Assembly: GCA_018648325.1 (NCBI GenBank)
Contig: JABGRK010000012.1
Location: forward strand, 102,549-166,548
DNA from: Chloroflexota bacterium
Lineage (GTDB): Bacteria > Chloroflexota > Dehalococcoidia > JABGRK01
Direction: 5' to 3'
DNA length: 64,000 bases
Part shown: in pieces, positions 28,117-35,375 of the stretch
Numbering within the stretch: the first letter of the stretch is position 1
Layout: every line of letters starts with the position of its first letter
Program-made: the position numbers and the translations under genes
The notes under the pieces: generated by a model
What the model saw: the letters and a program-made list of their open reading frames with translations, nothing else
Told to the model about the DNA's origin: nothing
The model's database searches: none

Positions 28117-29964
28117 ATGAACGGCACAGATAACCTGTTATACAAAGTTACCAAACCGGCGCGCTACAGAGGTGCCGAGTGGAATAGCATCACTAAAAAT
28201 TGGGACGACATTGATATCAAGATAGCGCTGGCCTTTCCCGATGTCTACGAAATTGGGATGTCCAACTTGGGGCTGGCGGTTCTTTACGATATTTTAAACG
28301 GGCAGCGCCATGTTTTAGCCGAGCGCGTTTTTACCCCGTGGGTTGATATGGAGTCCGAGATGCGTCAGTCCGGGATTGCGCTTTTTTCACTGGAATCCCA
28401 AAGGCCTTTGATTGACTTTGATGCCATCGGTTTTTCACTGGGGCATGAGCTTACCTATACCAACGTGCTTAACATGCTGGATCTGGCTGGTATTCCGGTA
28501 CTGGCGTGTGATCGTAATCAGTCGCATCCCCTGATAATTGGCGGGGGAGTATGTGTTCTCAACCCTGAACCTATGGCCGATTTTTTTGATTTGTTTGTCA
28601 TTGGTGATGGCGAAGAAGTTGTAGTTGAGCTTGCAGATGTGCTGCGTGAGTTGAAAAAATCAGGGATTGAACTCAGTAGAAACGAAATGCTCATGAAACT
28701 GGCGCAGATTTCCGGTATTTACGTTCCGTCGTTATACAAAGATAGTTATAACACAGACGGCACACTGGCCGCGCTGAAGCCGTTATTTGAAGATATTCCT
28801 GCGATTATTAATCGGCGCATAGTGCAAGAGCTGCCGCCGCCACCGGTTAAGTACCCCGTGCCCTATATTCAGGTGGTGCATGACCGCGCTGTTGTTGAGA
28901 TACAGCGTGGTTGTACTCAGGGGTGTCGCTTTTGCCAGGCGGGGATTGTGTATCGCCCACTGCGTCACAGAACGAGTGACCAGATTGTAGAAGCTGCAGA
29001 CCAGCTTATCGACAACTGCGGATATGACGAACTATCGCTGTTATCCTTAAGTACTGGCGATTATCCGGGGATAGAGGAACTGGTTACTGTACTGGCAAAG
29101 CGATACCAGCGTAAGCGTGTTTCCATCTCTCTTCCCAGTTTGCGTCTCGATACTTTCTCTGTGGATCTTGCCGAATCGCTCAAAGGGCGCAAAAAGACTG
29201 GCTTTACATTTGCTCCGGAAGCTGGCTCGGACAGGTTGCGCACTGTTATCAATAAACACCTTTCCAATGACGCCTTGATGCAGACCGTGACTATGGTTCT
29301 TGCCAAAGGGTGGAGCAACCTGAAGCTTTATTTTATGGTGGGTTTACCTACCGAAACGTTGGATGATGTCCGGTCCATAGTCGATTTGGTATACAGCATA
29401 CGCAAGATTCGTGGTTCAAATGGCAGGCAAGCACAGATAAAGGTCAATGTATCCACCTTCATTCCCAAGCCGCATACTCCGTTTCAGTGGGTGGGGCTGG
29501 ATAGCCCTGAGCAACTTGAACAGAAACACGATATTCTGAGGCAGGGATTCAGGAAAGGTGGCATTCAGCTTTCGTGGCATGACCCTGAATCAAGCCTGCT
29601 GGAAGCTCTAATGGCGCGTGGCGACAGGAGAGTGGGCAAGGCCATACACCGTGCATGGCAGTTGGGTTGCAGATACGATTCCTGGAGTGAGCATTTCAGG
29701 TACGATTTGTGGCAGCAGTCCTTTGATCAGACTGGTATTGATCCGGGACTATACGCTCGTCGGAAGCGTGATCTAGATGAGGTGCTGCCTTGGTCACATA
29801 TCGATATTGGCGTTAGTGTAGATTTTCTGCGGCGCGAATATCAGCGAGCCATGGATGAGAAGGATACACCTGATTGTTCTCAGAATGCGTGTGTGGCATG
29901 CGGGCTTCAGGCCTCGGACGTTAAGTGTCAGACGAGGCGTGAGTCTTCTGCTTCATCTGATTAA
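28117..29964 (+). CDS. TIGR03960-type radical SAM protein
   Basis: A 615-residue radical SAM enzyme with GGAG 5 bp before ATG. An N-terminal B12-binding-like domain (about 35-240, with FPDVYEIGMSNLGL and IIGGGVCVLNPEPMADFFD) precedes the SAM barrel with RGCTQGCRFCQAG, whose three cysteines bind the 4Fe-4S cluster. FTFAPEAGSDRLR and VSTFIPKPHTPFQW are conserved later. The C-terminus has a Cys-rich piece (CSQNACVACGL). In many bacteria this gene neighbours rpsL/rplU-type genes, and function remains unassigned. Confidence 0.88.
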   Translation: MNGTDNLLYKVTKPARYRGAEWNSITKNWDDIDIKIALAFPDVYEIGMSNLGLAVLYDILNGQRHVLAERVFTPWVDMESEMRQSGIALFSLESQRPLIDFDAIGFSLGHELTYTNVLNMLDLAGIPVLACDRNQSHPLIIGGGVCVLNPEPMADFFDLFVIGDGEEVVVELADVLRELKKSGIELSRNEMLMKLAQISGIYVPSLYKDSYNTDGTLAALKPLFEDIPAIINRRIVQELPPPPVKYPVPYIQVVHDRAVVEIQRGCTQGCRFCQAGIVYRPLRHRTSDQIVEAADQLIDNCGYDELSLLSLSTGDYPGIEELVTVLAKRYQRKRVSISLPSLRLDTFSVDLAESLKGRKKTGFTFAPEAGSDRLRTVINKHLSNDALMQTVTMVLAKGWSNLKLYFMVGLPTETLDDVRSIVDLVYSIRKIRGSNGRQAQIKVNVSTFIPKPHTPFQWVGLDSPEQLEQKHDILRQGFRKGGIQLSWHDPESSLLEALMARGDRRVGKAIHRAWQLGCRYDSWSEHFRYDLWQQSFDQTGIDPGLYARRKRDLDEVLPWSHIDIGVSVDFLRREYQRAMDEKDTPDCSQNACVACGLQASDVKCQTRRESSASSD

Positions 29965-30710
29965 ACCACCACTGCTGCTATTTCTCGGCTGTTAATTGTG
30001 ATGCTATTGGATTGCAGGGTGAATACGAACTGGCTACCCTGTCCGTACTCACTTGATGCTGTAATATCGCCGCCCATAAGATTGGCCAGTTTTTTGCTCA
30101 AATACAGGCCCAGACCGGTGCCGTCCTGGCTTTTGGTAAGGTCTGAATTGACCTGTTGGAATGGCTGGAAGAGCCTTTTGAGGTCTGTACTTGTGATTCC
30201 TGCACCTGTGTCAGTAACTTTGAATTCCAGCGTTGTCTTGTCTTTAAGTTTGGTAGATATCTTGATACTGCCTTTTTCGGTAAATTTGATTGCATTACTA
30301 AGCAGATTGATTAAAATCTGTTTAATTCGTCTGCTGTCACTATGCAGGCATATGGCTTCTTGTATATCGGTGTTAATCGGCAGTTTTTTAAGATTGGCCA
30401 TTGGCGAAACAGTATTTAGCACTTCGGTTAACAGATCATCCAGTTTGATATCAGCGGTAATAAGTTCGAATTTTCCGGCTTCCAGCTTGGAAATATCCAG
30501 TACATCATTGATCAGGCACAGCAGATGGTCGGCACTGCTTTTTACCATTGTTAGTTGCTGGCGTTGTTCGTCGTTTATCTCGCCGGTAAGTCCTTGCAGC
30601 ATTATACCTGTAAAACCGATTACAGCGTTAAGTGGCGTTCTTAGTTCGTGACTCATACTGGCAAGAAATATGGATTTAAGCCTGTCAGCTTCCTGAAGGT
30701 GTATATTCAT
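29961..30710 (-). CDS. Histidine kinase catalytic half (3' part of a split gene)
   Basis: 249 codons from an ATG inside the preceding reading frame. HisKA (MSHELRTPLNAVIG, phospho-His near 21) and HATPase boxes N (LINLLSNAIKF), G1 (DTGAGI) and G2 (DGTGLGLYL) are intact, and it ends naturally. On its own it lacks any sensor. The codons upstream of the ATG remain open, and the sensory half ends 26 bp into this ORF in another frame, so the two are best read as one broken kinase. An independent kinase translated by coupling is the alternative. Confidence 0.75.
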   Translation of the reverse strand: MNIHLQEADRLKSIFLASMSHELRTPLNAVIGFTGIMLQGLTGEINDEQRQQLTMVKSSADHLLCLINDVLDISKLEAGKFELITADIKLDDLLTEVLNTVSPMANLKKLPINTDIQEAICLHSDSRRIKQILINLLSNAIKFTEKGSIKISTKLKDKTTLEFKVTDTGAGITSTDLKRLFQPFQQVNSDLTKSQDGTGLGLYLSKKLANLMGGDITASSEYGQGSQFVFTLQSNSITINSREIAAVVV

Positions 30711-32064
30711 TTTTAATATGGGCGAAAGATGCCAGGGACGGGAAAAGGTATCCGTCTTTTCTAACGTGTTCTATTTCCGCCGTATGTGTGGAATTACCAG
30801 GTACAGATAGTATGCCAGAAAGTGTTTCAATTTTATTGGTGAGAAATCTGTTAATGTAATGCCGTAACTGTGTTCCGATGAGTTCTTGCGGAGTATATCC
30901 GAGCATGTCAGAGAATGCGTCATTAACATACGATATTTTCCTATCGATAGTGCTGATAATAACAATGCCATCGCTGGCTTGTTCCATGGCCAAGTTTAGC
31001 TTGCGTATGCTGTCTTCCATCTGTTGACGTGTTGTGATGTCACGGGCGATGAAAAGATATCCTATTCGTTTACCGTGCTCGTGTTGCAGCAAGGACGGCG
31101 ATATGGATACCGGGATGATTTTGCCTGTTTTGGACTGTAATGTTGCCTGGTAATCTTTTGCTTCTTTGAATTCGGGGCTATGCATTTTCCGAATAGTGTT
31201 CATTGTTATATCTGCTTGAGGGAAGTATGCTCTGAGTTCGTTCCCCACCAGTTCTTCCTGCCGATAGCCGATTGTGTCCATAGCAGCGCGGTTAACCGTT
31301 GTGATTTTACCATCAAGGTCGGTCAGAAACAGCAAGTCCGACATGGTATCCAGAATGTTTTCTGCTGCCATAGATGGTTCCACTGTAAATAGGCGGTATT
31401 TCCACATACCATACCAGATAAAAAGGCCGCCAACGGTCCAGGCAGAGACAGTCATATCCGGCATTTGGATACTCAGTAATGGAGAAAGCAAACCCGTTAG
31501 CATACCTACTAATGATGGTATTGTGTAGCCGATTGCGATATATTTGGCCAAGTGCTTTTTGGCATGGTCTTTTTGCTTGATATAGTATCTCCACATTATG
31601 AAACCAATAAGCACGACCATTGATATGAACCAGATATTAGTAATCAGTGTTGTTGCGTTGAATTGTGATTCATTTGCCCACCCCCACCAGGCCTGTTTGA
31701 TTTCCGAAGTCAGGTAATTTGTCGTTATAACGATAATAGTAAAGCACATTGCAGGAACATATATTAGTATGAGGGCTCGTTTTTTACTTAAGATCTTCCA
31801 TTGTTCGGTATAAGCCAGCGCGAAATGCAGGATGACTACCATGATAAGTGGCCACAGAACATCAATTTTTGCCCAAACCAGTGCCGCTGCTGTATTGCGT
31901 GACTGGCGAAGGCTGTATTCTGCGAAAGCGGTATAGGCCATCAGGATACATGTTATGGAGAAGAAACGATTGACTTTACTTTTAGAATTACTGGCATAAA
32001 CCAGCGCTGCCAGCACAAGCGAAATGATGGCAGAAGCTAGTGATACGAAGGCAAAAGAATTCAT
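30685..32064 (-). CDS. Histidine kinase sensory half: 7TM and two PAS domains (5' part of a split gene)
   Basis: 459 codons. An N-terminal seven-helix module (about 1-230, HisKA_7TM type), then PAS1 (about 240-355, ending FIARDITTRQQ) and PAS2 (about 365-455). PAS2 stops after SFAHIKNE, before its last strand and the usual DITERK linker, then runs into a frame-shifted end (YTPSGS). A length of about 20 residues typical for the PAS-HisKA junction is missing. With the downstream kinase half, one protein of about 700 residues would result if one base were dropped from the T5 run at 30710-30714 (plus strand). Confidence 0.78.
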   Translation of the reverse strand: MNSFAFVSLASAIISLVLAALVYASNSKSKVNRFFSITCILMAYTAFAEYSLRQSRNTAAALVWAKIDVLWPLIMVVILHFALAYTEQWKILSKKRALILIYVPAMCFTIIVITTNYLTSEIKQAWWGWANESQFNATTLITNIWFISMVVLIGFIMWRYYIKQKDHAKKHLAKYIAIGYTIPSLVGMLTGLLSPLLSIQMPDMTVSAWTVGGLFIWYGMWKYRLFTVEPSMAAENILDTMSDLLFLTDLDGKITTVNRAAMDTIGYRQEELVGNELRAYFPQADITMNTIRKMHSPEFKEAKDYQATLQSKTGKIIPVSISPSLLQHEHGKRIGYLFIARDITTRQQMEDSIRKLNLAMEQASDGIVIISTIDRKISYVNDAFSDMLGYTPQELIGTQLRHYINRFLTNKIETLSGILSVPGNSTHTAEIEHVRKDGYLFPSLASFAHIKNEYTPSGS

Positions 32065-32195: not shown

Positions 32196-32224
32196 TTGAC
32201 ATGGCGCTTGCGCAAACCTAAAAT
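32196..32224 (+). promoter_or_regulatory. Promoter of the GAF/HPRT fusion gene
   Basis: TTGACA (32196-32201), a 17-bp spacer and TAAAAT (32219-32224), 20 bp before the TTG start with AAAGGGG between. Repeated TGCGCA hexamers overlap the spacer and follow the -10 box. Confidence 0.65.
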
Positions 32225-32244
32225 GCGCACAAAGGGGAAAACAT

Positions 32245-33642
32245 TTGGCTAGCGCAAAAGTGAGAGACTACTACAAGCTGGTGCGGCGTGTGACAGCGGA
32301 ACTTCATGCCGAAAGTACGCTTGAGCATTTTAGTGCGACCGCTATCCGTGGTATCGCACGTAGCATGGATGGTTCCGCCTCTCTGCTTCTTTTGGATTCA
32401 ACCGGTAAAAAACTGGTGCATAGTACTTCTTGGAAGCTGCCTCAATTCTATCTAAAAAAGGGCGTGCTAGATGCCCAAAAAAGTATTGCCGAGATAGTCA
32501 AACGACAGCCAATAATAGTGCCCAGTGTGCGCCGTAGCAAGCGTATGCAGTATCGTGAGCAGGCACTAGAGGCGGGATTCGCCTCAGTTTTAGGTGTTCC
32601 GATAATGAATGGCAGCAGCCCGGTTGGCACTATAAGGGTTTATCTTAAAGAGCATAGGGAATTTACCAACAACGAGGTGGAGTTTGTTTCAACGATGGCT
32701 AGCTTAGTGTCGCTGGCCCTTGAGAAACAAACATGGTTGAATCAAACTAAGGATATGGCGGCAATCGAGCCAGTGGAACCCAAGCAATTGCCAAAGCTAA
32801 AGAAGGTAAAGTTTGTCCATCCCAGCGAGGAAGAATTTGCCAGTATCCTCGATTTCTACAACATCGAGTGGGTGTATGAGCCAAGGGCGTTTCCTCTGAA
32901 TTGGGAGGGGCAGAGAGTAACGCAGATGTTTACTCCCGATTTCTATCTACCCCGCTATGATTTGTATGTAGAGCTTACTACCATGAAGCAGCGGTCGGTT
33001 ACACTTAAAAACAAGAAATTGCGCCGCCTGCGTCAGCTCTATCCCGGCACTAAAATAACATTGTTGTATAAAAAAGACTTTGAGCGTATGCTTGCCCGGT
33101 TTGGGTATGAACCGATGGCACAGGCTAAAGGGCACGGCGTTGGCGAAGTACTCTTTTCTGCAGATCAAATACAGCGGCGCGTGAGTTCACTGGCAAAGCA
33201 AGTGTCCGAAGATTATGAAGGTAAAGTGCCACTGCTGGTGGGAGTTTTAAGGGGGGTGATTTGCTTTATGGCTGATCTTATACGAAATATGAGTATTCCC
33301 CTAAATGTTGACGTGATGTCGTTGTCTTCTTACGCAAGTGATAGGGGTGAGGTGGTTAAGATAACCAAGGATCTAGCTATGGATGTTGTGGGCAGGCATG
33401 TGATTATGGTGGAGGATATTATAGATACGGGCATAACTTTGAACTATCTGCTCAATCACCTGTGGTTAAAAAAACCGGCAAGTCTAGCGGTATGTACGTT
33501 ACTTGATAAAAAGGCGCGGCGTTTGTTGGATACTCCTTTAGACTATGTGGGATTTGAAGTGCCGGATCAATTTGTGATCGGCTATGGGCTTGATTATAAA
33601 GAAGAGTATCGCAATTTACCGTTTATAGGTGTGCTTGAGTAA
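32245..33642 (+). CDS. GAF + PD-(D/E)XK-like + hypoxanthine phosphoribosyltransferase fusion
   Basis: A 465-residue protein with TTG start and GGGGA about 7 bp upstream. Residues about 1-165 form a GAF domain (LGVPIMNGSSPVGTIRVY, then the LALEK helix). Residues about 190-290 look like a restriction-endonuclease fold: YEPRAFPL, FTPDFYLPRYDLYVELTTM and the KNKKLRRLRQLYP helix provide a PD-...-E-x-T/K pattern. Residues about 295-465 are an HPRT-type phosphoribosyltransferase with LVGVLRGVICFMADLIR, SLSSYASDRG and the PRPP motif VIMVEDIIDTGITL, ending FVIGYGLDYKEEYRNLPFIGVL as in real HPRTs. The PRT active site looks intact, so IMP/GMP salvage is plausible. What the GAF and nuclease-like domains sense or cut is unknown. 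Confidence 0.82.
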   Translation: MASAKVRDYYKLVRRVTAELHAESTLEHFSATAIRGIARSMDGSASLLLLDSTGKKLVHSTSWKLPQFYLKKGVLDAQKSIAEIVKRQPIIVPSVRRSKRMQYREQALEAGFASVLGVPIMNGSSPVGTIRVYLKEHREFTNNEVEFVSTMASLVSLALEKQTWLNQTKDMAAIEPVEPKQLPKLKKVKFVHPSEEEFASILDFYNIEWVYEPRAFPLNWEGQRVTQMFTPDFYLPRYDLYVELTTMKQRSVTLKNKKLRRLRQLYPGTKITLLYKKDFERMLARFGYEPMAQAKGHGVGEVLFSADQIQRRVSSLAKQVSEDYEGKVPLLVGVLRGVICFMADLIRNMSIPLNVDVMSLSSYASDRGEVVKITKDLAMDVVGRHVIMVEDIIDTGITLNYLLNHLWLKKPASLAVCTLLDKKARRLLDTPLDYVGFEVPDQFVIGYGLDYKEEYRNLPFIGVLE

Positions 33643-34056
33643 GAGTAAAAAACGGGCATAAAAAACCCTCCAGGTAACCTTTGTATCCTGTAACTTCCTG
33701 AGTAACTCCAGCCTTTCAGTTTAACCCTAATCGGCTTTTGTTTCCTCGTTCCTTTACTTTATACTCCGGTTTCCTGGAAGGACTTACAATTTGCCATAAA
33801 GCGGATTCCTTGTCAAACGTTGTATCGGGTAAATAGTGACGTTATAAGGCACTGACATCCAATGGCATATAGTATAATCTTCAATAATCCGCCTATTCCG
33901 TCAATTACCACGATTAACTCCCTCTTTTGCCAAGGGGAGGTCACTACTAACGGGGCCACGGATTTTTGTTTAAATAGATGATGCAATGGGTTGCACAAAG
34001 TTATTTATCGAACATATAATGGTTATTCGTTAAGCAATTATTTGGGAGAGAGTAGG
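33643..34056. other. Intergenic region
   Basis: About 410 bp between the fusion gene and the first acetyltransferase. No gene, tRNA or clear hairpin terminator was recognised. A GGGAGAG ribosome site (34044-34050) closes it. Confidence 0.45.
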
Positions 34057-34695
34057 ATGAATGATGATTTAATCGGGCTATACCGCTTGGATAAGACTGA
34101 TGTTGATCGTGCGGCTGAAGCTCTGGGGCGGGCTTTTACTGATGATCCGCTCACTCTGTTTGCCTTTCCCGATGGAGTGCCGGATGATGGGGTAATGTTC
34201 AATTTCTTTAAGGTTCCGGTGAAGTACACATTGAAATACGGCGAGGCCTATGCTCCTTCCTCTGAGATAGAGGGTGTTGCATTGTGGTTGCCATCGGGCA
34301 GGTCTGCGATGACCTTCTGGAGGATGTTACGTATTATGTCGCTGTGGTCCATGTTAAAGATGATGCGCAGAATAGGTTTTGGCAGGATGAAACGCATGGC
34401 CAGTATCGGCGGGTTTCTGGATAAAGCGCACAAGCGTCTGGCACCTTCTGAACACTGCTATCTACAAACACTGGGCGTTGATCCTGATCATCAAGGTAAC
34501 GGATATGCCAGTAAACTGCTGCGGCCTATGTTTGCCCGCCTCGATGAACAGCGTATGCCTTGCTACCTTGATACGCTCACCGAAAAGAACGCTGCGATGT
34601 ATGAGCACCTCGGTTTCAAGGTATTGGAAAAGATGGATATCCCTGATACTGACATCTCAGCTTGGGCTATGCTAAGGGAGCCGGGCGGAATATAA
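34057..34695 (+). CDS. GNAT-family N-acetyltransferase (copy 1)
   Basis: 212 residues from ATG 34057, preceded by GGGAGAG; an in-frame ATG at 33991 lacks a ribosome site. GNAT motif A appears as LQTLGVDPDHQGNGYASKLLRPM with the acetyl-CoA pyrophosphate loop (QGNGYA), and motif B as MYEHLGFKVLEK. The acceptor substrate is unknown. The next gene is a close paralog (both contain KRLAPSEH and PCYLDTL), so this is a tandem duplication. Confidence 0.85.
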   Translation: MNDDLIGLYRLDKTDVDRAAEALGRAFTDDPLTLFAFPDGVPDDGVMFNFFKVPVKYTLKYGEAYAPSSEIEGVALWLPSGRSAMTFWRMLRIMSLWSMLKMMRRIGFGRMKRMASIGGFLDKAHKRLAPSEHCYLQTLGVDPDHQGNGYASKLLRPMFARLDEQRMPCYLDTLTEKNAAMYEHLGFKVLEKMDIPDTDISAWAMLREPGGI

Positions 34696-34733
34696 TGGTT
34701 AATCATTTACTGATTTTTAAAGGAGCAAGTGGG

Positions 34734-35375
34734 ATGGATGACGGTTTGAATGGGCTCTACAGACTTCAGAAGGATGATGCCGATAGTGTGGGTGAGATGC
34801 TGGGGAGGGCTTTCTACGATGATCCACTGACATTGTATGCTTATTCCGATAGGGAACGCGAAAGTGGTAGCCTGCACTACTTTTTCCAATTCCCCATAAG
34901 GTATTGTTTGCGCCACGGCGAAGGTTATACACTCACTTCCGAGATAGAGGGCGTTGCTTTGTGGTTGCCATCCAACAAGTATCCAATAACGTTCTGGAGG
35001 ACGTTGCGCACTGCATCGCTGTGGTCCATGTTAAAGATGAGCAGTAGGATAGGTATTGGTAGGATGAAACGCATGGCCCGCATAGGTAAACACATTGATG
35101 AAGCGCATAAACGTCTGGCTCCGTCTGAACACATGTATCTATATGTATTGGGCGTTGATCCTGAGCATCAAGGACAGGGCCTTGCCAGCAAGCTGCTAAA
35201 GCCGATGTTTGCCAAGCTTGATCAGGAAGGCATGCCGTGCTACCTGGATACACTCATGGAGAAAAACGTTGGAATGTATGAGCATTTTGGTTTCAAGGTG
35301 CTGGAAAAGATAGACATTCCAGACACTAATATTACAAGCTGGGCTATGCTTAGACAGCCCAGCTTGGCTATTTAA
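34734..35375 (+). CDS. GNAT-family N-acetyltransferase (copy 2)
   Basis: 213 residues from ATG 34734 (AAGGAG about 8 bp upstream); in-frame starts at 34662 and 34695 would overlap copy 1 or lack a site. Same layout as copy 1: LYVLGVDPEHQGQGLASKLLKPM for acetyl-CoA binding and MYEHFGFKVLEK. A gap of 38 bp separates it from copy 1. The N-terminal third (DDPLTLYAYSD, IEGVALWLPSNK) diverges more, which may reflect a different acceptor. Confidence 0.84.
   Translation: MDDGLNGLYRLQKDDADSVGEMLGRAFYDDPLTLYAYSDRERESGSLHYFFQFPIRYCLRHGEGYTLTSEIEGVALWLPSNKYPITFWRTLRTASLWSMLKMSSRIGIGRMKRMARIGKHIDEAHKRLAPSEHMYLYVLGVDPEHQGQGLASKLLKPMFAKLDQEGMPCYLDTLMEKNVGMYEHFGFKVLEKIDIPDTNITSWAMLRQPSLAI

Follow-up and report, generated by a model that had tools for sequence, protein, structure and literature searches.

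Why would an HPRT, among the best-studied salvage enzymes and normally annotated as nothing more, share one chain with what reads like a nuclease? The gene that raises this question lies in the window, that is, the whole 64,000-nucleotide stretch of Chloroflexota DNA analysed here, and the original prediction described it as a fusion of a GAF sensor, a PD-(D/E)XK-like domain and a purine-salvage phosphoribosyltransferase (PRTase). The gene, its putative signals and its domains are as follows:

32196..32224 (+): sigma70-like promoter TTGACA-17 nt-TAAAAT, 11 of 12 consensus matches
32233..32237 (+): AGGGG, ribosome-binding-like, 7 nt before the TTG start, read from the sequence
32245..33642 (+): GAF - PD-(D/E)XK-like - HPRT fusion gene, 465 aa, TTG start
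32317..32724 (+): GAF domain, residues 25-160 (Pfam PF13185/PF01590 above cut-off; absent in many relatives)
32812..33114 (+): PD-(D/E)XK-like domain, apparently related to T7 endonuclease I, residues ~190-290 (profile matches and conservation)
33148..33639 (+): HPRT domain, residues 302-465 (TIGR01203 above cut-off)
33412..33438 (+): PRPP loop EDIIDTGIT, residues 390-398 (E390, D391, T395 and G396 conserved in the family)

Both outer domains were recovered as predicted. Using Pfam, we detected the GAF sensor at the N-terminus (GAF_2, residues 25-160, E=7e-13; 49.3 bits against a gathering score of 28.6) and a Pribosyltran domain above its cut-off at residues 306-451 (E=3e-23). The NCBIfam HPRT model (TIGR01203) assigns residues 302-465 to the HPRTs with 192.8 bits against a cut-off of 150, and the nearest solved structures to this domain are bacterial HPRTs (1r3u, E=3e-51). 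The PRPP loop is intact, and the signature residues E390, D391, D394, T395, G396, K422 and D441, which we take to belong to the PRPP loop and the purine site, are conserved in the alignments. The window protein thus shares with bacterial HPRT the entire C-terminal domain, including the PRPP loop and the purine-site residues, but typical HPRTs are single-domain proteins, whereas the window protein adds a nuclease-type domain and its family usually a GAF domain too. Since no second HPRT was found in the genome of the window (the other match is PyrR-like), the fusion protein must carry all HPRT salvage there.

The same PRTase fold doubles as a regulator in PyrR, but the window protein reaches only 31.8 bits against the PyrR cut-off of 140 and has a nuclease-type domain that PyrR lacks. 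TilS-HPRT and the TilS/HprT complex of B. subtilis show the same pairing of an HPRT with a nucleic-acid-related partner (PMC8152036), but the window protein is without the PP-loop TilS domain (no ATP_bind_3 match in Pfam) and represents a different HPRT gene. A TilS-HPRT gene with ftsH after it is also present in Chloroflexota (L310; genome G405). In the open-access literature, we found no description of a GAF/PD-(D/E)XK/HPRT fusion; each of the domains is already known, and what appears new is their combination.

Residues 161-300 of the window protein had no Pfam match. A profile of the middle domain built from 20 relatives matched T7 endonuclease I in PDB (3cae, E=2.4e-4), and phage endonuclease and resolvase PHROG families were matched by all 20 of these relatives. 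The Pfam family of T7 endonuclease I (PF05367) was matched weakly by the middle domains of 13 of the 20 (best E 1.3e-4), neither the window protein nor its middle domain gave a match at the gathering score of 29.1 bits, and a search of the relatives of G405 with PF05367 is uninformative, as neither it nor the controls returned any. In a profile-profile comparison (hhalign) with an alignment of T7 endonuclease I built from viral contigs, the middle domain scored 95% over 94 columns (E=3.7e-8), while reversed and eight column-shuffled control profiles stayed below 1%. These matches point to a PD-(D/E)XK-like domain, as had been predicted, with a motif that is not the textbook one. The original prediction would have reduced the middle region to a linker if it had no significant match or were degenerate or absent in homologues; judged by profiles it has a significant family match, and it is the most conserved part of the protein.

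The predicted motifs FTPDFYLP and ELTTM and the basic helix (KNKKLRRLR) were located where claimed, and their key residues are near-invariant, which exceeds chance by far. Conservation was counted over 153 unique homologous sequences, 151-152 of which cover each position:

32827..32829 (+): E195, motif I acid (T7 E20 in the profile alignment), 152/152
32938..32940 (+): D232 of TPDFYL, motif II (T7 D55 in the profile alignment), 151/151
32971..32979 (+): E243-L-T245, motif III (T7 E65-T-K67), E243 152/152 and T245 152/152
33007..33018 (+): K255-N-K-K258, basic helix, motif IV, candidate relocated catalytic Lys, K255 152/152 and K258 151/152

The order and spacing of the motif I Glu, the PD and the motif III Glu are those of T7 endonuclease I (PF05367, PDB 3cae/1fzr/1m0d/2pfj), and the helix that follows motif III and ends in YP/HP is also shared over the 94 aligned columns. 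The T7 counterparts of E195, D232 and E243 are catalytic residues. Among the residues that define PD-(D/E)XK proteins, the motif I Glu, the motif II Asp and the motif III Glu are present and the Lys of motif III is not: a Lys was never seen at position 245, where every sequence has Thr. The fusion family further differs from T7 endonuclease I in being cellular and HPRT-fused and in having a Lys at the position of D74; aligned through the helix, K255 falls on T7 D74 and K258 on T7 K77.

Cutting by the middle domain is plausible, but unproven because the invariant Thr replaces the signature Lys. The same Thr in motif III together with a Lys/Arg patch in the following, motif IV helix has been published for DUF1626, and relocation of the signature Lys to motif IV for DUF506 and DUF790 (PMC1913061). 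The fusion family has no Pfam match to DUF1626, DUF506 or DUF790, which have other domain partners. Given this published pattern, an active or metal-binding variant is a likelier reading of the site than a dead one. If spacing is counted from motif III, T7 K67 corresponds to T245; the profile alignment instead opens a gap and sets K67 opposite K248, a position with Lys or Arg in 148 of 152 sequences, and as it does not set K67 against K255, K255 is a candidate only for the relocated Lys. The family provides a large and clean natural set of a PD-(D/E)XK site with a relocated Lys that is open to mutational testing.

Relatives of the middle domain were also identified outside the HPRT lineage. 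A search of viral contigs gave one close match. A phage contig encodes a standalone middle domain with E-x-T and both helix lysines directly after an endonuclease VII gene (L193:4704-5312). Two Chloroflexota DnaE inteins (L191:1388-7927 and L285:144-5000) contain a related PD-(D/E)XK homing-type nuclease (EIKG); phage and intein relatives of the domain retain the usual ExK. A related domain (YRPDFYLP...IEHF...WKR) is present in HelD/UvrD-like proteins of ~910-980 aa (L280-L284), and in these HelD-like helicases, too, motif III has no Lys (IEHF) and the helix that follows carries a conserved WKR.

The middle domain is encoded in 127 of 294 genomes of a same-class sample, mostly with 50-70% identity. 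Homologues of the window protein in named Chloroflexota genomes are 46-61% identical over the aligned length, and one from the same genus 76%. Among 57 GAF-bearing proteins, mean pairwise identity was highest in the middle domain (74%), lower in HPRT (68%) and lowest in GAF (44%), and by this measure the middle domain is under stronger constraint than HPRT itself. All 80 named loci join the middle domain to HPRT, L114 through overlapping frames and the others within a single frame. Of the 153 unique sequences, 124 are fused, 77 as GAF-middle-HPRT and 47 as middle-HPRT; another 16 have the two domains in adjacent genes (18 with L114 and L178, judged by eye), and the rest are middle domains alone or fragmentary. 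The GAF-bearing form occurs in Dehalococcoidia-type Chloroflexota. In other Chloroflexota, the middle domain is a separate open reading frame directly before or overlapping hpt (L174, L176, L178, L180-L188), and standalone copies without an adjoining HPRT were also found (L172, L173, L175, L177, L179, and L190). The fusion gene is widespread in Chloroflexota and mostly single-copy per genome. A plasmid search gave one true match, to the megaplasmid of Thermomicrobium roseum, a cultured member whose fusion is annotated simply as hpt (WP_012643103.1).

In a tree of HPRT, the fused and adjacent copies form one clade (61 of 63 leaves, support 0.92) whose other two leaves, L114 and L189, likewise adjoin the middle domain. 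Most fusions are nested among adjacent pairs, and as far as the sequences tell, this is one HPRT lineage always linked to the middle domain, with the adjacent gene first and the fusion later. The fused L060 and L153 are placed outside the main clade of linked HPRTs and may reflect a second fusion event. Second HPRTs form a separate clade (18 leaves, support 0.98) and precede adenine deaminase in the cases read (L301, L304, and L309), which suggests a division of labour in genomes with several HPRTs. Chloroflexota have a separate HPRT lineage with a nuclease-type domain, and a plain salvage HPRT beside adenine deaminase often coexists with it. At six loci (L079, L081, L087, L088, L097, and L119), the fusion gene has a second, distinct HPRT gene in tandem behind it.

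The gene was originally predicted to have its own promoter and no partner gene. The sigma70-like site is indeed present, but the count of promoter-like sites in the region around the fusion gene is not above that in shuffles. The lack of a partner is true of the window, where the fusion gene is flanked by a divergent kinase gene upstream and a GNAT gene ~350 nt downstream, and where the genome has nrdJ on another contig; in the family, however, the gene commonly follows nrdR-nrdJ. Of 71 assessable loci, 34 have nrdJ, which encodes the B12 ribonucleotide reductase, immediately before the gene and in the same orientation (spacing -73 to +73 nt), often with nrdR ahead of nrdJ. In L094 and L123 the gene follows carB instead of nrdJ, and the T. 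roseum gene is convergent with mutM.

Our main reading, to which we assign a probability of about 0.5, is that a salvage HPRT carries, on the same chain, a ligand-gated module that is probably active, either as a DNA nuclease or in DNA binding. A housekeeping HPRT, predicted to convert hypoxanthine or guanine and PRPP to IMP or GMP, shares its polypeptide with a nuclease-type, putatively DNA-binding domain from the T7 endonuclease I branch of PD-(D/E)XK and, in Dehalococcoidia-type Chloroflexota, with an N-terminal GAF ligand domain. This domain may be catalytically competent with a Lys supplied by the helix, most likely K255 and possibly K258 or K248, and would act on structured or damaged DNA rather than serve as a scaffold only. 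HPRT oligomerisation could supply the dimer that a resolvase-type nuclease needs, and the nuclease or the DNA-bound state may be tuned by whatever occupies the HPRT site (PRPP, purine, perhaps (p)ppGpp) and by the GAF ligand, which would link the supply of purines and dNTPs to DNA processing. PRPP and (p)ppGpp influence HPRT oligomerisation in other bacteria, with Lys81 as a marker in B. anthracis numbering (PMC6783271). Counting backwards from the ED motif that both share puts K372 at the equivalent position, which makes such control possible in the fusion protein. The missing signature Lys, the standalone copies with no adjoining HPRT and the location of nrdJ on another contig in the genome of the window weigh against the main reading. 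The most specific form of the proposal is tentative: PRPP, purine or an alarmone and the GAF ligand would switch a T7-endonuclease-I-like domain with a relocated Lys, so that the salvage enzyme is itself a ligand-gated nuclease that couples purine and dNTP supply (nrd operon) to the cleavage of DNA that is structured or damaged. That purine state is coupled to nucleic-acid processing, as raised in the original prediction, is a hypothesis that the gene context makes more plausible, while the accompanying suggestion of a regulator of a nucleotide second messenger gained no support in this analysis. If the domain cuts or binds DNA, the protein would connect purine salvage, dNTP synthesis and DNA maintenance in a direct, physical way. 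No endonuclease V was found in the genome of the window, which is context for a possible role with deaminated purines and no proof of it.

The main rival, somewhat improbable in our judgement, is a middle domain that binds DNA or RNA with the help of a metal and does not cut, targeting HPRT to an operator (e.g., of nrd or pur genes) in the manner of PyrR or TilS-HprT. A domain without the signature Lys could bind metal without cutting, its helix is very basic, the operon with nrdR-nrdJ would suit a regulator, and there is a precedent in the B. subtilis TilS-HprT complex, which binds DNA at the ftsH promoter (PMC8152036). However, three acids and two helix lysines are kept essentially without exception in more than 150 sequences, which is stricter than binding alone predicts, and no single operator is implied by neighbours that vary between lineages (nrdJ, carB, and others). 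A structural linker or oligomerisation module without any nucleic-acid role has little probability, even though HPRTs work as dimers and tetramers and the domain sits between two others: its conservation is concentrated at the active-site positions, and standalone genes as well as a phage encode it. On the strength of this conservation and of the standalone copies, we rejected a mere linker.

Two roles for an active nuclease are very unlikely. A stress or anti-phage effector gated by purine nucleotides would agree with the sensor-nuclease architecture, with the phage and homing nucleases among the relatives of the middle domain and with weak PADLOC PD-DEXK matches, but these matches are marginal (E ~1e-3 and 3e-5) and cover the motif region only, so a defence system was rejected, and a mostly single-copy, phylum-wide gene in core-metabolism operons, with one HPRT clade and an intact salvage site, is not what such an effector predicts. 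Similarity to T7 endonuclease I and the phage copy next to endonuclease VII would suit a Holliday-junction resolvase in place of RuvC; the motif III Lys that T7 endonuclease I requires is missing, however, and the RuvC encoded in the genome of the window (170 bits) speaks against a replacement, which we rejected. The reading of a salvage HPRT tethered to a nuclease or DNA-binding module is the one that we prefer.

Elsewhere in the window, an open reading frame for a 7TM-PAS-PAS protein (30685-32064, minus strand) overlaps one with a histidine-kinase-like core (29961-30710, minus strand) by 26 nt in a different frame; the two are probably parts of a single sensor kinase gene (29961-32064) that a frameshift, or an error in the assembly, has divided. 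Downstream, 33991-35375 (plus strand) contains two similar GNAT-like acetyltransferase open reading frames in tandem (234 and 237 aa).
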